Of a stretch of DNA of 30,570 nucleotides, positions 6,059-29,830 are shown one piece after another. Source of the stretch: a virus. Under the pieces are notes generated by a model. That model made no database searches, was not told the origin of the DNA, and worked only from the letters and a program-made list of their open reading frames with translations. The DNA lies in IMG/VR virus record IMGVR_UViG_3300037882_000734, positions 1 through 30,570 of that record, one strand, 5' to 3'. Position numbers and translations under genes: made by a program. The first letter of the stretch is position 1. Every line of letters begins with the position of its first letter.

Positions 6059-6589
6059 ATGCCGCTAGTCTTCGATCACCCATCAGTTCCGCCAGCCGGA
6101 TTCGATTTCAAAGACCCGTCCGGCGTGACCATCAATGCGCCATCCGCCCGCAAGCTGATCGAGAAGATAGCCCAGTTCAGGTTGGCGAACGGGAAGCCAA
6201 AGGGAAATCCGCACGCCGAGGTAGAGGCCGACTACCGCGTGCGCTACCCGTGGCTCGTATCTAAGGTCGGGGCAACTCCAGAGACGCCGGAAGACCCTGT
6301 ATCAAAGTGGCTGAATCGGGCGTGGAAGTCGCCAATCAAGGAGCGGGAGTTCGCTGACTCCACCGTGATTGAGGAGCGGCTTTCGATTTGCAAGGAATGC
6401 GAGCATTGCGTCACCCATGTCTATGCGCCAGAGGCCAAAAGGCGGATGGCGATCCTTGGCTGCGGCCGAGTCACCAATATGTCTGCGTGTTCCGTGCATC
6501 ACTGGCCGGTCGGGCTGGCGGCCCTGCATCAAACACACGACACGCCGCTTCAAGTCGATGGCTGCTGGGTTGCACGGAAGTCGCCTTGA
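6059..6589 (+). CDS. Zinc-cluster phage protein on the opposite strand, 176 aa
   Basis: The N-terminal half is charged and helical. The C-terminal half carries a cysteine cluster CKECEHC (111, 114, 117), then LGCGR (135), MSACSVHHWP (144, with His 147/148) and a last Cys at 169. This spacing suggests a zinc-ribbon or treble-clef structural site. Proteins of this kind with Cys clusters near the C-terminus occur near tail genes in many phages, but I know no assigned activity. It is the only gene on the plus strand inside the late block. It ends 40 nt inside the 3' end of the HTH gene on the other strand, so the two genes converge and overlap. Confidence 0.65.
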   Translation: MPLVFDHPSVPPAGFDFKDPSGVTINAPSARKLIEKIAQFRLANGKPKGNPHAEVEADYRVRYPWLVSKVGATPETPEDPVSKWLNRAWKSPIKEREFADSTVIEERLSICKECEHCVTHVYAPEAKRRMAILGCGRVTNMSACSVHHWPVGLAALHQTHDTPLQVDGCWVARKSP

Positions 6590-7098
6590 GCCCACATGAC
6601 ATAAACTGAATGCCCGTTTATTCCGAGACGGCGACCGGCCTCATTGAATGCGTGATCCTTGGTCCATAACGGAACTGTTCGCCTGTGCTTCCCGAACGCC
6701 GAAACTTCCCTTGTCTTATCGGATGCCATCAACTCCAGCGCCAACTTAACGCACGCGAGCTTTTGAGTCAACGTGTAGCGGAATCCGCGAGCACGCAGCT
6801 TTCGCTTCCCCTGCTCCAGTCTCCGCTTCCTGTTGTGGCTTATCAGCGTGTGATAATTTATGCCCAGCCTTTTGCTGGCCGCAATAAACCCATCCTTCTG
6901 AGCCAGCGCCAAGCCCTCATCAAGCAATAGATCGGAGTGCTTTCGGCGCGGCTTCGCCAGAGTGTTGATCGCATCCTTGGTTGCACCATCCATAGTGGCC
7001 AGCACGCGGTCCCGCTTACGCGCACCAACAGCCTGCCTGATTTTGGGAGTCACCTCAATCCACACACCGGGCTTAATCTCTATGCGTTGGCGATCCAT
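6550..7098 (-). CDS. DNA-binding protein with two HTH-like segments, 182 aa
   Basis: The start is the ATG encoding MDRQRIEIKPGVW. A strong GGAGG lies six bases upstream, and the codon comes one base after the terminase stop; the longer frame back into the terminase is not needed. Two helix-turn-helix-like stretches are visible: LAQKDGFIAASKRLGINYHT (about residues 65-85) and AFNEAGRRLGINGHSVYVMW (about 150-170). They share the motif A-x-x-RLGIN and look like an internal duplication. The protein is strongly basic. Roles could be late regulation or a packaging/recombination accessory; the position directly after the large terminase favours a packaging helper, without proof. Confidence 0.6.
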   Translation of the reverse strand: MDRQRIEIKPGVWIEVTPKIRQAVGARKRDRVLATMDGATKDAINTLAKPRRKHSDLLLDEGLALAQKDGFIAASKRLGINYHTLISHNRKRRLEQGKRKLRARGFRYTLTQKLACVKLALELMASDKTREVSAFGKHRRTVPLWTKDHAFNEAGRRLGINGHSVYVMWAQGDFRATQQPST

Positions 7099-7099
7099 G

Positions 7100-9049
7100 T
7101 CAGTCCTCCGCATCAAGCCGGTTTGATTCCCATGCGCCTTCTGTGCCGAGTGATTCCGGCTCGTCGGCATTCTTGAGGCTCACGGCTACGGGAGCACCTT
7201 GCTCCTCTTTCTTTTTCTCCATGATACCCGGCAGCACTTTGCCGCGTCGGCGGCACCATTCCACGAGAAGCAGGGAAACGTCGGCCTCGTCCGGCGATGT
7301 GCCGTGGTTGCGGGCCTTGTAGATTTCCTTGGCCTCGACCTGAACCTTTCCGCCCTTCACGTTGTAGTATCGGCGGGTCGTGAGCTGCGAGAACAGCGGC
7401 GATGTCGGCACGATTGGGTTAATCAGCATCGCGCATACCACCGGATCAAGCCACCGCTTGAACGCAAACCACAGCTCGGTCGCCTTCAGCTTGTAGGTAT
7501 CGTAGGCACTCATCTGATCGTCCGACAGAATCTTATCCTCCGATGCCGCCGTTCCGCTTTCAACTCCGAGCACGTTGCCCCAGTAGGTTTTGAGGTGGGA
7601 CCACACGCCAGCGGCATTTCCGCCTGAGTCCATGGCTAGATTCTCCGGCTTGATGCCCATGCCTGTGCATCGACCCATGACTTCCTGCGCCATCTCGGTT
7701 GCGCTTGATGTCTTCGGGAGCTGAAAGAGTTGGTCGAGCACGCAGACATGCTTGTTGATTTTCTGCGTAGGATCGGCGCGGTTCACGAACCATTCCATCT
7801 TGCCATCGGCGTGCGTCCATCCAGCGGCCTCGCCCCAACGACCTACGCCAAGGATGGCTTTGTCTCCGCCGCCGAGGGCCGTGTCCATGGCCGCGATGTT
7901 CTCAACCTCGCCAACATAGACCGGCTCGCCGCGCTGCGACTGAACCCACGAAGGCGGCACAATCGTATAGGCATTGTCCTTCAATGGCGGAAATCCCCGG
8001 CCCTTGGCCCAATATGCGGCGGAGTGCTCGCCTGCGCGAAGGAAGCCGACGAACGCCTCGTAGGTGAGCATTCGCGGGTAGATCGTGCGACGCTCGACCA
8101 CGTTCTCGAACAGCTTACCGTCCAAGCGCAGCACGGGATAGCCCTGCTTAGATGTCCACTCGTAGAGCGTGTCAACCTGCTCGGCATCCCAGCCCTCCTC
8201 CGGCTCTGCCATCTGCACGATCTTGTAGGTGATGCCCTCGGGGTTGCATGGCATCACGATCTTTACCGTGTCCATCGTTGGATCAATGGATGCCTCCGTG
8301 GTCTTGATGTCCTCAAAAGCACCGGGGGAAACCTGCGTACCTTCGTCGATTAGGATGAACAGCCGCGTGCTGTTTCCGTATCTCGGATGCTCAGGCTTGC
8401 GGTATGGCTTTGGCTTGTGGCCACGCAAGGCACCGGCAGAAATCTGCGATTGCTTACAAAGCACGCCCTGAATGCGCATCTCGGGCAGCGCGTCATTCAT
8501 GCTGATGAACAGGTCGGTCTCGTTGACCTTTACCTTGTTCGCATCGTCATCCGTCATCGGGATCACCGCGCCTTTGTGGAGCGCAACCAAGTGGGAAAAG
8601 AGATTGGTGTAAAGATGGTCCTCAGACGGAGCGGCCAGCTTAACGGCAGTCCAAAAAGGATCGCGCCGCCATTCTAAATAGAAGAGTACGCCACATGAGA
8701 ATGTCTTACTTAAGCTGCTGCCGCCCAATATGATAAGTTTACTATTCTCCTGCACCTTGCGAAACACATCGCGCACCACCTTGGGCCGAGAATCAAACAT
8801 TCCGTTGCCCCAAAGCAGAATCGCAATCTCAATGAACTTGCCTTCGTCAGCCAAGTTTTTCTCCAACGCCTGAAGCACATCGACCGCCTCCTGCTTGTCA
8901 GTCACCACGTCTTCTGATCCGCTGGCGCTGATAGCGAGATTCGCGGCCTCCATCCAGCGTTCACCTGACGTTGCGTTATCGCCTGCGCGAGCCGCTTCCA
9001 CGCCCTCGGCTATTGCCTCGTGAATAATTTGTAGAATTTCTACGTTCAC
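7100..9049 (-). CDS. terL: Terminase large subunit, 649 aa
   Basis: This is the DNA-packaging motor that pumps genome into the prohead and cuts the concatemer. The N-terminal ATPase shows a variant Walker A (GGSSLSKT, residues 109-116) and a Walker B (LFILIDE, 230-236), followed by a MPCNP coupling-type motif (267-270). The C-terminal RNase H-like nuclease has candidate acidic residues at AMDT (Asp 389), AMDSGG (Asp 474) and SPDEAD (Asp 587/590). About 100 residues precede Walker A, longer than in many terminases. The start is GTG, overlapping the stop of the upstream gene as GTGA, with a GGAG nine bases before it. Confidence 0.93.
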   Translation of the reverse strand: MNVEILQIIHEAIAEGVEAARAGDNATSGERWMEAANLAISASGSEDVVTDKQEAVDVLQALEKNLADEGKFIEIAILLWGNGMFDSRPKVVRDVFRKVQENSKLIILGGSSLSKTFSCGVLFYLEWRRDPFWTAVKLAAPSEDHLYTNLFSHLVALHKGAVIPMTDDDANKVKVNETDLFISMNDALPEMRIQGVLCKQSQISAGALRGHKPKPYRKPEHPRYGNSTRLFILIDEGTQVSPGAFEDIKTTEASIDPTMDTVKIVMPCNPEGITYKIVQMAEPEEGWDAEQVDTLYEWTSKQGYPVLRLDGKLFENVVERRTIYPRMLTYEAFVGFLRAGEHSAAYWAKGRGFPPLKDNAYTIVPPSWVQSQRGEPVYVGEVENIAAMDTALGGGDKAILGVGRWGEAAGWTHADGKMEWFVNRADPTQKINKHVCVLDQLFQLPKTSSATEMAQEVMGRCTGMGIKPENLAMDSGGNAAGVWSHLKTYWGNVLGVESGTAASEDKILSDDQMSAYDTYKLKATELWFAFKRWLDPVVCAMLINPIVPTSPLFSQLTTRRYYNVKGGKVQVEAKEIYKARNHGTSPDEADVSLLLVEWCRRRGKVLPGIMEKKKEEQGAPVAVSLKNADEPESLGTEGAWESNRLDAED

Positions 9050-23426: not shown

Positions 23427-24203
23427 TTATACCCAGTCACTAATTGGCGCTCGACGCCATGTATTAAGGGCCGTTGCTACATACAGATACTCGTCATCGT
23501 AGGCCATCTGTCCAGCAATTCCGGCGGCAGAGGAGGAGGCTGGAGCCGAGCCAGACGGAAGCGTGATGGGCGCGTTCGCCACCGCCGTAATGCGGCCCTT
23601 GCCATCAACCGTGAAAACGGGAACCTGTGTCGCTGACCCAAAGCTGCCAACGTCGGCATTGACAGTCGCGAGCGTCAGCGCCACCGATCCAGGTCCAGCG
23701 GCAGTCGCGTCTCCGGTCAACGCAGTGATATAGTTACCGGCCGGTTGCTTGTTATTAAACGTCGTCCAGTCGGCTGAAGATAGATAACCGTCAGCGGACC
23801 CCGTTGCTACAGGAATTGAAATCTCTGGCTGCTGTCCGGCGGTAGAGGACAACGGAGCAACAACCGTCACGTCAAGAATGCCAGCATTGGATATTCCCCC
23901 ACCAGAAAGAAGAAGCCCGGTCCCGACACCCAACTCTTGAATGGCCCCTACTCCAGCGTCTGTGCGACCAAGAATGCGATTCTGCGTCATCGACAACCCG
24001 GATGCGGTTATCGGGCCGGGGCTGACGTAAATGCCGCCAAATAGATTGAGGTTCACTACGGCCGCGCACCCCTTCTTTTGAATCTGCCAGATGGGATCAA
24101 CGCCAAGCACAGGGCGTTCGGAGCCCGTCAGGATGCACAGCGCGTCACAGGCGTTGAATATCGCAGTGTTGAGCGAGACGTTGGGCTGGAATGGCTCGGC
24201 CAT
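23427..24203 (-). CDS. Fibre/appendage-like protein with SADWTTFNNK motif, 258 aa
   Basis: After an N-terminal 60 residues with three Cys (NACDALCILTGSERP, then QKKGCAAVV), the sequence becomes beta-rich and fibre-like. GSADGYLSSADWTTFNNKQP is a motif seen in very many phage fibres and in pectate-lyase-like tail proteins. The C-terminus, IAGQMAYDDEYLYVATALN then WRRAPISDW, is a compact beta hook shared with the 81-aa protein at 27041-27286. It follows the gp11-like gene after 14 nt. Probably a minor tail fibre or head/tail appendage. Confidence 0.65.
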   Translation of the reverse strand: MAEPFQPNVSLNTAIFNACDALCILTGSERPVLGVDPIWQIQKKGCAAVVNLNLFGGIYVSPGPITASGLSMTQNRILGRTDAGVGAIQELGVGTGLLLSGGGISNAGILDVTVVAPLSSTAGQQPEISIPVATGSADGYLSSADWTTFNNKQPAGNYITALTGDATAAGPGSVALTLATVNADVGSFGSATQVPVFTVDGKGRITAVANAPITLPSGSAPASSSAAGIAGQMAYDDEYLYVATALNTWRRAPISDWV

Positions 24204-24217
24204 GGTAATAGGCCATG

Positions 24218-25201
24218 CTAGAACCAGCGGCCGTCTCCTCCGCAGCCGCCACCATAGAAGAGGGATTCTTGGCCACCGGGCTCATATGTGCCGTTAATTA
24301 TTTGGGGCACCCTCGGCCCGCTGGGGCGCAAAGCCTCGGTCTCTTCGGCCAGAATGCGCGATGCTTCTTCCTCGAATTTGCGGGCCTCATCCAGCTTGTC
24401 GTCGCCACGATACTTGACGGCGCGGCAGGCAAGACGCAGGGCTTCGTAGTTGTCTATCGAAAGCCAATCGCTCATCGAACGAATAGCCAGGGTAGCCTTC
24501 TTGTATTTGACCAGCACGTTCGTCTTGTTAGGAACCTTTATGCGGCGGTAAGTAGGCTCAACCTCGTTTGGCTCGTAATGGCCAATCAACGTCTGACTCA
24601 CGCCATCCGAAGCACGGACAGCATAGAGCTTCACGAAGTCCTTAGTGGTCTCTTTGCTGATTCGGTAGATTCGACCCAAAGAAGGTACGTTCGGGTTGCG
24701 CTGTGGATAGCCGAAGATCAGCGGAACAAGGAAGCCCTCGTAGAGCTTGCCGTCAGGACCGGGCGTGAAAATCTTTTGGCCGTTGTCGGCCCTCGTGGCG
24801 AACACGCGCAACTTCTTGTTGTTATCAGCCGCGCTCGTTACCTCAGCAGTGAGATACGCGGGATATGCCGGATCGCGATAGGTGCAAACCTGCCCCATCT
24901 CCGTGATGACTCCGCACGCACCAGTTCCGCGCGCGCCGGGACCATTAATGTGGTAGCGGAAGAATTGGTCCTGCAATAACGTCGGATGCCCACAGACATC
25001 AACGCCGAGCACTGTGCCAACATCGCGAGGAAGCGTAACGCAGCCATCGCAAACACACAACTCAACCTCCCCTAAAAGGGGATCGGTAATCCCCTTATTG
25101 GCAATCAAGCGCAATGCGTCTGATGTGCGATCAAAGACATCTTGCTCGGAGCACGAGGCAAACTGGGTTTTCGCCTGACTGTAAAAATCTCTCATGTACA
25201 T
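24218..25201 (-). CDS. Tail tubular A/adaptor-like protein (gp11 position), 327 aa
   Basis: The start is the ATG of MYMRDFYSQAK, which has GGAGG eight bases upstream; the ATG five residues earlier would put this site inside the gene. N-terminal helices (SEQDVFDRTSDALRLIANKG) are followed by beta regions. The C-terminal half ends in helices typical of tail tubular A/head-closure proteins: SMSDWLSIDNYEALRLACRA then DEARKFEEEASRILAEE. In T7-like phages gp11 joins the portal to the nozzle and sits just before gp12, as here. The last 20 residues are Gly-rich and unusual. Confidence 0.75.
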   Translation of the reverse strand: MYMRDFYSQAKTQFASCSEQDVFDRTSDALRLIANKGITDPLLGEVELCVCDGCVTLPRDVGTVLGVDVCGHPTLLQDQFFRYHINGPGARGTGACGVITEMGQVCTYRDPAYPAYLTAEVTSAADNNKKLRVFATRADNGQKIFTPGPDGKLYEGFLVPLIFGYPQRNPNVPSLGRIYRISKETTKDFVKLYAVRASDGVSQTLIGHYEPNEVEPTYRRIKVPNKTNVLVKYKKATLAIRSMSDWLSIDNYEALRLACRAVKYRGDDKLDEARKFEEEASRILAEETEALRPSGPRVPQIINGTYEPGGQESLFYGGGCGGDGRWF

Positions 25202-25977
25202 GGCGATTTCCTCCATCCTTTGTGGTTCGATTGCTTCCCAAGCATGACTTGCACTAGCGAAGTTCCAGTGAGTTTCATTTTTCTTGCAAATAGAGAGATA
25301 TTTTTCCCGACATACAACTCACCAAGCGGAGAAACTAGGCTGTACTCCTTCTCTATTGCCCAAGCATTGTTGGTCCTTGTCCGTCCGCCGTTCTTTCTCC
25401 ATCCAAGACATGATAGCAATCTTCCGGTCACAACACCATGCATATTTCCCTGAGGGAGCCCATGCTCCTTGCAGAATTTTTTAAGATTAACCCCAGCGTG
25501 GACATCGCCGTTTGGCGATATTAATTCAAATTTATTCAAATTAGACCGATTCTCTATTGATCGCATGGCGAGTATCAGCTTGTCCGACGGCCTTGCCGGA
25601 CGGCCTGCCGCATCATGTCGGATATTGAATCCGTCTCTGGCTGAATCCAACGCGTTGATCCACTTTTGTTCGAATGAAATAACTTCGCTTGGATTACAGA
25701 ATTCCAGCACCTTGAAAATAAATCTGGATTCGCCAAACATTTGATAGGCGGAAGCCATGTGGGGATTCTTGTGCCTATTCCCCCTGAGCGAACCCCTGTG
25801 ACAGTTAAATCGGGCACGGATATTTCCAGACCCTCCCATATAATACCGCCCATTCGCATCGCAGAGGATCGCATAAACTCCCGGACGCGCCAGCGCCTTA
25901 TCTGGCTTTTCAGTCAGTAATTGCGCCGCAGGAATTTCGCATTCGGAAACCATGTAGAATTGTGTAGAGCCGAACAC
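25192..25977 (-). CDS. GIY-YIG homing endonuclease with two C-terminal DNA-binding repeats, 261 aa
   Basis: The catalytic domain spans about 30-122: GVY at 33-35, YYMGG at 45-49, the conserved Arg at 54 or 56 (GNIRARF), Glu 103 (FEQKWINAL) and Asn 118 (GFNI). Two related DNA-binding repeats follow: FELISPNGDVHAGVNLKKFC (150-195) and YSLVSPLGELYVGKNISLFA (212-257), each ending GWRK, as in NUMOD/IENR-type intron-encoded nucleases. It is a free-standing mobile gene between two structural genes, and its 3' end overlaps the gp11-like start by 10 nt. Its sequence is visibly more AT-rich than the neighbours. The start is a GTG; ATG at residue 9 is an alternative. Confidence 0.9.
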   Translation of the reverse strand: MFGSTQFYMVSECEIPAAQLLTEKPDKALARPGVYAILCDANGRYYMGGSGNIRARFNCHRGSLRGNRHKNPHMASAYQMFGESRFIFKVLEFCNPSEVISFEQKWINALDSARDGFNIRHDAAGRPARPSDKLILAMRSIENRSNLNKFELISPNGDVHAGVNLKKFCKEHGLPQGNMHGVVTGRLLSCLGWRKNGGRTRTNNAWAIEKEYSLVSPLGELYVGKNISLFARKMKLTGTSLVQVMLGKQSNHKGWRKSPCT

Positions 25978-27291: not shown

Positions 27292-27486
27292 TTATTGGTT
27301 GTCCACGATGAACGCGGAATAAAAGCAGGATTTACGGATGGCCGACATTTCATTATCAAGAGCGTTCGGCTCAAGCGTTCCCGAGTACCCATAGGCTTGG
27401 GCCAGCTCAAAGAGGTTGCGCGATATGTCGCGCCAAAGCCCTGTAGATGAGTCGGGCGGGAATCCAATTCCGGGATATTGTGGCAT
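27292..27486 (-). CDS. Small protein paralogous to its neighbour's N-terminus, 64 aa
   Basis: It begins MPQYPGIGFPPDSSTGLWRD, closely matching the first 20 residues of the 81-aa protein just downstream, then diverges into an Ala/Leu/Asn-rich segment ending SCFYSAFIVDNQ. The two genes are therefore probably tandem duplicates that acquired different C-termini. It lies 120 nt downstream of the capsid gene. The shared MP-QYP-x-IGFPP module may be a docking motif for the capsid. Confidence 0.6.
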   Translation of the reverse strand: MPQYPGIGFPPDSSTGLWRDISRNLFELAQAYGYSGTLEPNALDNEMSAIRKSCFYSAFIVDNQ

Positions 27487-27509
27487 ATTCGTGTGAGGTT
27501 GTTACTACC

Positions 27510-27525
27510 ACCGGCCCTCGCCGGT
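27510..27525 (-). terminator. GC-rich hairpin after the capsid gene
   Basis: A perfect 6-bp stem ACCGGC/GCCGGT with a 4-nt loop (GAGG on the transcript) lies in the 120-nt spacer between the capsid stop and the 64-aa gene. There is no U-run, so it is not a textbook intrinsic terminator; a partial attenuator or an RNA-processing/stability element for the abundant capsid message is equally likely. I see no gene in 27487-27606. Confidence 0.4.
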
Positions 27526-27606
27526 CTCCGCCCCGACCAAGAGTTAATCCAGATCGGGACGGTGTGTGAATCAAGCGGAACTCATGGCGTCCGCGTGGCC
27601 CCGAGA

Positions 27607-28857
27607 TCAAACCTCGTCGGTCAGATCGCTGATGTCGGTGCAGGTGTCGGTGGCATCGGTGAAGGAGCCACGGCAACGCTTGCTGATGATCGACAGAACA
27701 TAGTGCGGTGCATACGGCTGGATCGCCCGCACAATGCGGAACTGGAACCAGCCGAAATCCTGCCAACGATTGCAGGATTCAAGCGGATTGAACCACTTGA
27801 GTTCACCGCCGAACATGCCCGTCGGCCACTTCGCCATGTCCTCACCCGTGTAGTTCTCCGGAGTGAGACGCCCGAAGGCATTCTTCGCGAAGATCATGAA
27901 CGAGACCTCGTAGGCCGCGTTCACCCACTGCGGGTTGGTTTTCCACGTCAGGCCGGTCGAGTTGGTCGCCACTTGCAGGTAGGGCTCAATGAGCACCGGA
28001 TTGCCGTTGGCGTCCAAACCGTTGAAGCGGAGGGGAACCGGGTCGATGGCGAACTTCAGGCCACGGAAGTTCGAGTCGATGAAGGCGTAAGCCCACAGGC
28101 CGGTATGGCCGTCAGCGTAGCCGCCGGTCGTGCTGGCAACCAGCGTGTTGTTAACCGGGGCGTCGGTGCGCAGAGCATCATTCAACTCGTAGGAGGTGAT
28201 GTAGATCGCGTGCGCGTCCGGCCCCTTGCCGAACATCGGCGGGGTGAAGTTGTAGGCGATGTAATCGCGCAGCCACTTGGCGTACTGGAAGGTCATCCGG
28301 TCGCCGGGGAAGTTGCCGTTGAAGTTGGTGGACACAGCCCACTCGGAACCCGTCAGGCCGGACTCGGGAACGCCGCCAGGGGCAGGCGTCACGAACTTCA
28401 TGCCGGAGAGATCGAGCAGATTGCTGCGGATGTCGGCCGAGATAACCGACTTGATGCCCTCTTTGAGCATCTGCACCGCTTGATCGAGCTGCTTTTCCAC
28501 CACGAAATACTGCTGGCGAACGCAGATCGGAGCGGACTGGCCTTCCAGCACGCCGGGGATCGACGTGTATTGGTAGGTGCCCCACTTGGCAGTGGGAGGA
28601 GCCAGTTGGCAGGACTCGGAGAACGGGGTGAACTCAGGAGAAGTGAGGCTCTGGTTCATCGCCGTGCGGGGAGTGGCAGAATAAATCTGCTGCTCGCCGT
28701 AGCCGGACGAGAACGTGTCCTGAGTGACGATGTTGGAGTAAGGGTCCGTGTAAGCAATGTGCTCGACGAACGCGAGGCGGATGGTCGAATTTTGTTCCTC
28801 AAGGGCAGAAGCGAATTCTGCCGGGTCGAAGTCACAGACTGAGCCGTTGGTAGCCAT
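27607..28857 (-). CDS. Candidate major capsid protein, 416 aa
   Basis: Of the size usual for HK97-fold capsid subunits and placed immediately before the small virion and gp11-like genes, as T7 gp10 is. The N-terminal part (residues 1-75) is helical and Ser/Thr-rich with TAMNQSLTSPEFTPF. A long spine-like helix (QQYFVVEKQLDQAVQMLKEG then SVISADIRSNLL) spans about 115-150, and the C-terminal part alternates strands and loops (WLRDYIAYNFTPPMF; APHYVLSIISKRCRG). No peptidase or propeptide is visible. The gene has its own long structured leader, as expected for the most strongly expressed late gene. Assignment is by position, size and fold-like pattern. Confidence 0.65.
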   Translation of the reverse strand: MATNGSVCDFDPAEFASALEEQNSTIRLAFVEHIAYTDPYSNIVTQDTFSSGYGEQQIYSATPRTAMNQSLTSPEFTPFSESCQLAPPTAKWGTYQYTSIPGVLEGQSAPICVRQQYFVVEKQLDQAVQMLKEGIKSVISADIRSNLLDLSGMKFVTPAPGGVPESGLTGSEWAVSTNFNGNFPGDRMTFQYAKWLRDYIAYNFTPPMFGKGPDAHAIYITSYELNDALRTDAPVNNTLVASTTGGYADGHTGLWAYAFIDSNFRGLKFAIDPVPLRFNGLDANGNPVLIEPYLQVATNSTGLTWKTNPQWVNAAYEVSFMIFAKNAFGRLTPENYTGEDMAKWPTGMFGGELKWFNPLESCNRWQDFGWFQFRIVRAIQPYAPHYVLSIISKRCRGSFTDATDTCTDISDLTDEV

Positions 28858-28904
28858 AAGAGTATTGAGTTTACCCCGTAGCGCGCGGAAATAGATTGGA
28901 TGCA

Positions 28905-28995
28905 GCGGAAGGGCGCACGAGGAGTTAAATCCTCCGTGGCATCATGGTCCGAGCTGCCGGGGAGCGATCCCGTTCTCTAATCTCGGTTCTTCCGC
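28905..28995 (-). ncRNA. Highly structured 5' leader RNA upstream of the capsid gene
   Basis: On the minus-strand transcript a 7-bp closing stem GCGGAAG/CUUCCGC (28995-28989 with 28911-28905) encloses two further hairpins. One is CCGAG/CUCGG (around 28987-28983 with 28955-28951) containing an inner GGGA-UCGC-UCCC hairpin. The other is CACGGAGGA/UCCUCGUG (28938-28930 with 28923-28916, one bulged G) with the loop UUUAAC. The result is a three-way junction of 91 nt ending about 50 nt before the capsid ATG. The structure is read by eye. A regulatory leader, a ribozyme or a processing site are possible. On the opposite strand the closing stem is followed by TATTTTT. Confidence 0.5.
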
Positions 28996-29030
28996 TATTT
29001 TTGGATTGAGCCTGACGAAAGCTCATTTCC

Positions 29031-29044
29031 GGCGCTCTCGCGCC
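29031..29044 (-). promoter_or_regulatory. GNRA-tetraloop hairpin after the HNH gene
   Basis: On the transcript GGCGC-GAGA-GCGCC forms a perfect 5-bp GC stem capped by a GNRA-type loop, starting 6 nt after the HNH stop codon. A second weaker stem UGAGC/GCUCA follows at 29025-29007. No U-run follows, so it may stabilise or separate the HNH and capsid messages rather than end transcription. Confidence 0.4.
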
Positions 29045-29050
29045 CTGTGG

Positions 29051-29830
29051 TTACGCCAACGATTTCTCGATTGCCACGCAATGAGGAATCTTAGGACCAA
29101 TCATGTAGTCAATGGTAATTTTATTATACTTCCGCAGATTGTCTGGACCCCATAGGGGCTGCAAATTCGTGTAATGCCAACAATCCCGAACCTGCCTCGG
29201 GTCTGAGTGATCGAATGCCGAGCAAGGAATAATGTGGTCAATATGCCACACACCAATACTTCGGTTTTCCCATGTCATTCCGGGGAGCATAAGCGATTCA
29301 ATGTGCTCCGCAAATCCATTTCTGGATATGCCTAAGAAATGAGTTACGCTGGCCTTAGATTTCTTCTTGCCCGAAACACCAAGGATGCGCACCAAGCGGC
29401 ATTTCATGGCGCAGATAGCCCTAAACCGAGGATCTTTTTTCTTTTTTGTGCGCACCCATTCACGCATATAGGAATTCATCTCTGCCCTGTTTTCATTCCT
29501 CCAGATAGCAAGTCTCTTATCCACGCAATCTCTGCACACAAGTCCAGTAGGAGGAAATTCGTTAATCGGTTTTCCGGTTTCGCATTTCGAGCACGTTAGT
29601 TCAGTAGCCCCATTCGGTCGAACCCGCTTGTTAATCCATTTCCTGGCCCCTCCTTTTCTTGCAGAAACTCCAGATGACCTGAGTAATTCAGCTATGAACT
29701 CATTCCCGATTTGATACTTCTTCATCAGTTCGCGGAAACGCATCCCGCCAACATAATCCTCCACAACGGAAGCATTGCGCTTTTCAAGCTGACGCTTGCT
29801 TAGGTTATCATGGATGTGGCCGTTCCCCAT
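29051..29830 (-). CDS. HNH homing endonuclease with zinc fingers, 259 aa
   Basis: The C-terminal HNH core is WHIDHIIPCSAF (His 196, Asp 198, His 199) followed by TNLQPLWGPDNLRKYNK (Asn 222, Asn 231). A Cys-x2-Cys pair (80/83) and a second (99/102) form a zinc-binding segment in the middle. The N-terminus has an HTH-like stretch at about 22-55 (SVVEDYVGGMRFRELMKKYQ) that could recognise DNA. This is a free-standing homing-type nuclease, 3 nt downstream of the preceding small gene and about 190 nt upstream of the capsid gene, with a more AT-rich composition than its neighbours. Confidence 0.88.
   Translation of the reverse strand: MGNGHIHDNLSKRQLEKRNASVVEDYVGGMRFRELMKKYQIGNEFIAELLRSSGVSARKGGARKWINKRVRPNGATELTCSKCETGKPINEFPPTGLVCRDCVDKRLAIWRNENRAEMNSYMREWVRTKKKKDPRFRAICAMKCRLVRILGVSGKKKSKASVTHFLGISRNGFAEHIESLMLPGMTWENRSIGVWHIDHIIPCSAFDHSDPRQVRDCWHYTNLQPLWGPDNLRKYNKITIDYMIGPKIPHCVAIEKSLA

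Follow-up and report, generated by a model that had tools for sequence, protein, structure and literature searches.

Predicted folded RNA before and after a capsid-like gene in a small phage lineage

Stem-loops between late phage genes that are processed or that stabilize the message are known from the RNase III sites of T7, and the pseudoknot in the leader of T4 gene 32 reportedly offers a regulatory counterpart ahead of a start codon. In the abstract openings and listings consulted, we found no description of RNAs of this kind flanking a capsid gene in phages. Here, we analyzed a virus record of 30570 bases, referred to as the window, in which the stretch 28905-28995, upstream of a capsid-like gene, is predicted to fold into a three-way junction. 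We tentatively favor the view that this stretch belongs to a rapidly evolving, structured 5' untranslated region (UTR) of the capsid-like cistron and that it is one of two structured spacers that would process, stabilize, or insulate the mRNA. That the fold arose by chance is almost as probable.

The minus strand carries all the long late-block genes around 28905-28995, and the RNA to consider therefore reads from 29050 down to 28858. By its open reading frame (ORF) bounds, this leader (28858-29050, minus strand) spans 193 nt, from the stop codon of the adjoining upstream gene, which is endonuclease VII-like (29051-29830, minus strand; phrog_1035, E 1.7e-15), to the ATG of the capsid-like gene, an ORF of 416 aa (27607-28857, minus strand). 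On the other side of that gene, a spacer RNA with three predicted hairpins (27487-27606, minus strand) ends at the ATG of a small gene (27292-27486, minus strand) that, judged from translations, is present in all three phages compared here, namely, the window and two relatives designated L001 and L003. The sequence-only reading had placed the stretch in the only long noncoding part of the late block, which is not the case, as gaps of 360, 173, and 120 nt exist besides the 193-nt leader, together with a further gap of 553 nt that has an opposite-strand ORF inside. A 33-aa open frame (28925-29026, minus strand) crosses the leader; as a short coding ORF it was set aside, frames of such length probably being common by chance. 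Also rejected were a tRNA or tmRNA, none being detected, and an element repeated inside the record, for which there was a single match only. Elsewhere in the window, a 258-aa gene (23427-24203, minus strand) with no Pfam match is flanked by genes that have adjacent counterparts in L001, and it looks to have been inserted.

The name capsid-like is used because of where the gene lies and because both relatives found conserve it. The 416-aa protein has no match in PHROGs, Pfam, NCBIfam, or PDB sequences, and AlphaFold2, run with three sequences, gave an unusable model with a mean pLDDT of 29. The capsid label first attached to 27607-28857 thus has no family, structure, or sequence match behind it, and a capsid identity for the product is unproven. 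Pattern-seeded searches yielded only two relatives of this protein. L001 is a 44.6-kb IMG/VR contig with a protein at 73% identity, and L003 is a 6.2-kb contig, with a protein at 70% identity, from a genome bin labelled Sulfuritalea, a label that may be wrong for this phage contig. Among viral contigs, searches with the capsid-like protein returned 2, 27, and 25 candidate stretches with one relative each time, always on one contig, and that contig was again the single relative among 178 candidates when the 332-aa neighbor protein served as the query. Genome contigs gave one relative of the capsid-like protein among 45 candidates, and overlapping sets of genomes around the L003 bin gave 1 of 101, 1 of 399, 1 of 398, and 1 of 395, each time the L003 bin itself. 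There was no relative of the capsid-like protein or of its 332-aa neighbor in phage records and no relative in plasmid records. The leader DNA found short chance-like matches only in phage records, and motif scans of viral contigs produced 0, 1, 1, and 0 matches, both matches being the one contig already known. For the stretch 28905-28995, no alignable homologous leader was found.

The elements first read from the stretch are indeed there. The perfect 7-base inverted repeat GCGGAAG...CTTCCGC is present, and on both strands the prediction is of two hairpins enclosed by a closing stem, with a further stem nested inside the first hairpin. On the minus strand, where the 91-nt junction has a predicted fold of -32.9 kcal/mol, extension by an A-U and a U-G pair brings the closing stem to eight Watson-Crick pairs plus one G-U. 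Its 5' arm, UAGCGGAAG (28989-28997, minus strand), and 3' arm, CUUCCGCUG (28903-28911, minus strand), pair with probabilities of 0.66 to 0.88 in the full spacer, and the same closing stem recurs in the 193- and 211-nt minus-strand folds. Within it, the predicted folds place a first arm with a CCGAG/CUCGG stem and a nested CGGG/CCCG inner stem (28949-28986, minus strand) and a second arm formed by a GCCACG...CGUGCGC hairpin (28913-28940, minus strand).

That this density of pairing would be unlikely by chance, as had been supposed, is not borne out. On the minus strand, the 91 nt have a z of -1.77, with 14 of 200 shuffles folding as well, and z is -1.30 over 211 nt. A z of -1.77 or lower was reached by 36 of the 339 minus-strand blocks of 91 nt in a tiling that, at 40 shuffles per block, is noisy. 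The plus strand of the same 91 nt, which is antisense to the surrounding late genes, has a z of -2.43, with 3 of 200 shuffles folding as well; among 339 plus-strand blocks, 13 score at least that low. Perfect 7-base inverted repeats at a spacing of 60 to 100 nt number 91 in the window. Compared with shuffled flanks of 50, 70, and 100 nt, the closing stem gives p values of 0.46, 0.28, and 0.36 in the window, 0.02, 0.03, and 0.08 in L001, and 0.21, 0.25, and 0.52 in L003; Fisher's method over the three leaders' closing stems gives 0.047, 0.057, and 0.20, respectively. A test on the expected number of enclosing pairs gives p values of 0.23, 0.20, and 0.20 for the window, L001, and L003. The window leader shows no significant folding excess on the minus strand, and the closing stems do not clearly exceed those formed with shuffled flanks; both results count against a structured UTR. 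The same is true of the part upstream of the capsid-like start, which at 0.44 unpaired is no more paired than the regions before other genes, and of the leader itself, in which no promoter-like site was found. Counting for a structured UTR is the region from -25 to +5 of the capsid-like gene, with a mean unpaired fraction of 0.61, the fourth most open among 23 starts (the 28 listed genes minus five GTG/TTG starts and the ATG gene 6550-7170, plus 27292-27486).

Several of these results would be expected if the junction were a chance fold of a GC-rich spacer that serves no function in itself, with the genuine structured RNAs of the lineage located elsewhere. The number of minus-strand blocks that fold as well, the abundance of similarly spaced inverted repeats, and the p values of 0.28 to 0.46 for the window closing stem all point this way, as does the absence of a copy of the window junction from the relatives, and we give this explanation substantial weight. 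Against it stands the likeness of the window leader, in position and topology, to the structured leaders of L001 and L003. Each of these relatives has a spacer before the capsid-like gene (4559-5000 in L001 and 4198-4462 in L003), and a structured leader of about 200 nt is common to L001:4774-4970 and L003:4226-4430. Folded independently, the leaders of the window, L001, and L003 all enclose two arms within a closing stem, which counts for a structured UTR, and in each the second arm is the hairpin whose base matches among the three.

Comparison of the two relatives also counts for a structured UTR. A 29-nt stretch at 90% identity between L001 and L003 lies within a hairpin whose 8-pair base is identical, and the consensus of the two leaders has 40 pairs, all 40 kept in both and 7 changed on both sides, a count favored by the derivation of the consensus from those two sequences themselves. 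When the partners are slid by 1 to 3 columns, 25 to 41% of cells are paired, with at most one double-sided change, and a letter-dealing control, which has little power with two rows, gave 6 of 500. The L003 leader folds far better than its shuffles (z -3.9, 0 of 150; in a second run, -3.8, 0 of 200), again in favor of a structured UTR, and the L001 leader, which is weakly better than shuffles (z -1.8 and -1.5), counts against it.

To what extent the window shares this leader element can be judged from a covariance model, R1, of the hairpin conserved in L001 and L003. The model recovers its own two source sequences with E values of 3e-15 and 4.5e-14, by construction. In the whole window, it has no match at an E of 1 or less, the best being a chance-level match of 9.2 bits outside the leader. 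Searched against the leader alone, it scores highest on the junction's second arm (28912-28941, minus strand), at 6.2 bits and E 0.12, which is below the 9.2-bit chance matches elsewhere in the window and is not significant window-wide. The base of that arm, GCCACG/CGUG with a one-base 3' bulge, agrees with the base of the relatives' hairpin, which also speaks against a chance fold, and the hairpin is 55 nt from the ATG in the window versus 44 and 43 nt in the relatives. This hairpin-base pattern, written after the match was known, has a single occurrence in the window; among 20000 shuffled leaders, 5 contain it. Missing from the window leader are the conserved internal loop of the relatives' hairpin and the conserved stretch GGGAACACAAGCGG. 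A MAFFT alignment of the three leaders misplaces the window hairpin and was left out of the pair counts, and a 22-bit R1 match at another site of the L003 bin (E 0.29 over that genome), in a place with several overlapping ORFs, was taken as chance.

Kinship between the window junction and the leader RNA of the relatives is possible. A more specific form of this idea is that the junction is a reduced member of that RNA, having kept the closing stem and the base of the last hairpin and lost the internal loop and 5' domains, perhaps upon arrival of the endonuclease gene. The shared hairpin base, its similar distance to the ATG, and the E of 0.12 in the leader-only search argue in its favor, as does the endonuclease gene that adjoins the leader in the window, other genes occupying that place in the relatives. 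With a score lower than those of chance matches elsewhere, a post hoc pattern test, and the absence of the conserved stretch weighing against it, we consider such descent unlikely. Of the structured leader originally proposed before the capsid-like gene, what stands is that it is plausible, the leaders of the relatives being structured in the same place; what weighs against it is that the element shared by the relatives was not found in the window, that closing stems did not clearly surpass their controls, and that Rfam offered no match.

Arrival of the endonuclease gene is a plausible, if unproven, route by which the window leader came to differ from those of its relatives. A survey dealing with homing endonuclease genes inserted close to essential genes of phages reports capsid genes in 31% of the neighborhoods of one family of such endonuclease genes (PMC10448857). 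The present locus is like those insertions in having an endonuclease VII-like gene next to the leader and an HNH gene nearby in L001, and it differs from them in that no homing activity, intron, or splice signal is shown here. The L001 HNH gene (6292-7008, minus strand; phrog_374, E 4.6e-60) lies on the opposite strand between the capsid-like and small genes. The late block of the window also has a GIY-YIG homing endonuclease-like gene (25192-25977, minus strand), with no counterpart in the blastn-aligned parts of L001.

Among conserved RNAs in the window, the spacer after the capsid-like gene, which lies outside 28905-28995, has the best support. The spacer at 27487-27606 (minus strand) is alignable with L003 5708-5825, and its three hairpins have 23 of 23 nested pairs kept in the two sequences, with 6 changed on both sides, compared to 0 to 2 double-sided changes in slid controls. 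In the middle hairpin (27528-27562, minus strand), 13 pairs include 4, in one row, that changed on both sides between the window and L003. Compensatory change here counts for a structured UTR, on covariation from two sequences only. Judged only by folding energy (z -1.9 and -2.1), the spacer would not stand out. In L001, the best remaining match falls just before the small gene (E 0.096 in an unfiltered search; L015 8103-8213, equivalent to L001 7089-7199), a weak match because a separate search at an E of 1 or less did not report it. Just before the ATG of the small gene, a possible pairing of a GAGG loop with CCUC (27495-27519, minus strand) could form an H-type pseudoknot; it is invariant in the window and L003 and absent in L001. 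A similar stretch, AACAACCUCA, is seen in the window (27487-27510, minus strand), in L003:5803-5825, and in L001:4976-5000, a little upstream of the small gene's ATG in the window and L003 and of the ATG of the capsid-like gene in L001; its interpretation as a Shine-Dalgarno sequence was rejected.

Taken as a structured 5' UTR, the stretch would fit a picture, drawn from computed data (the predicted folds, the structured leaders in two relatives, and the covarying spacer after the gene), in which the spacers on both sides of the capsid-like gene hold folded RNA in this small phage lineage. The late block would then presumably be one transcription unit. The job of its folded spacers would be mechanical rather than sensory, with stem-loops marking and shielding both ends of a presumably abundant late mRNA, serving its processing, its stability, and its insulation from upstream transcripts, and with the start codon region left fairly open, to the putative benefit of the phage. 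A bolder version, which we regard as improbable, is that in this lineage two structured RNAs not described before flank the capsid-like gene, namely, a multidomain leader of about 200 nt (in L001 and L003, and eroded or replaced in the window) and the three-hairpin spacer with its possible pseudoknot, and that these may be bound by a phage protein, such as the capsid protein, setting late protein ratios.

Searches for known RNA families bear on what else the junction might be. Rfam 15 gave no match at gathering score in the window, L001, or L003. Permissive scans of the window and L001 leaders, to an E of 5, gave two chance-level matches, and such scans gave nothing for the L003 leader (E up to 2) or for the spacer at 27487-27606. 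A self-cleaving RNA, a riboswitch, or another named regulatory RNA is therefore very improbable, the three-way junction shape being all that suggests one, as no match at gathering score and none of this kind in the permissive leader scans was found, and the self-cleaving option that had initially been raised finds no ribozyme family in the window leader even at an E of 5.

If the conserved pair of RNAs is real, it would constitute a compact system for studying how an uncharacterized phage group sets its main late protein output and would add two RNA motifs without Rfam counterparts. A caution also follows, in that a neat three-way junction from a single sequence is not, taken on its own, evidence of a functional RNA.

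Among regulatory leaders, the T4 gene 32 pseudoknot differs from the candidate loop pairing at 27495-27519 in the distribution of the latter, found in two sequences and not in the third, and resembles it in pairing a loop with downstream sequence before a start codon, here outside 28905-28995. The processed stem-loops of T7 offer the other comparison. The RNAs described here are multibranched, unlike the single long hairpin of an RNase III site, and are known from sequence alone; they resemble the T7 type in placing stem-loops in short spacers that flank a structural gene of the late block.
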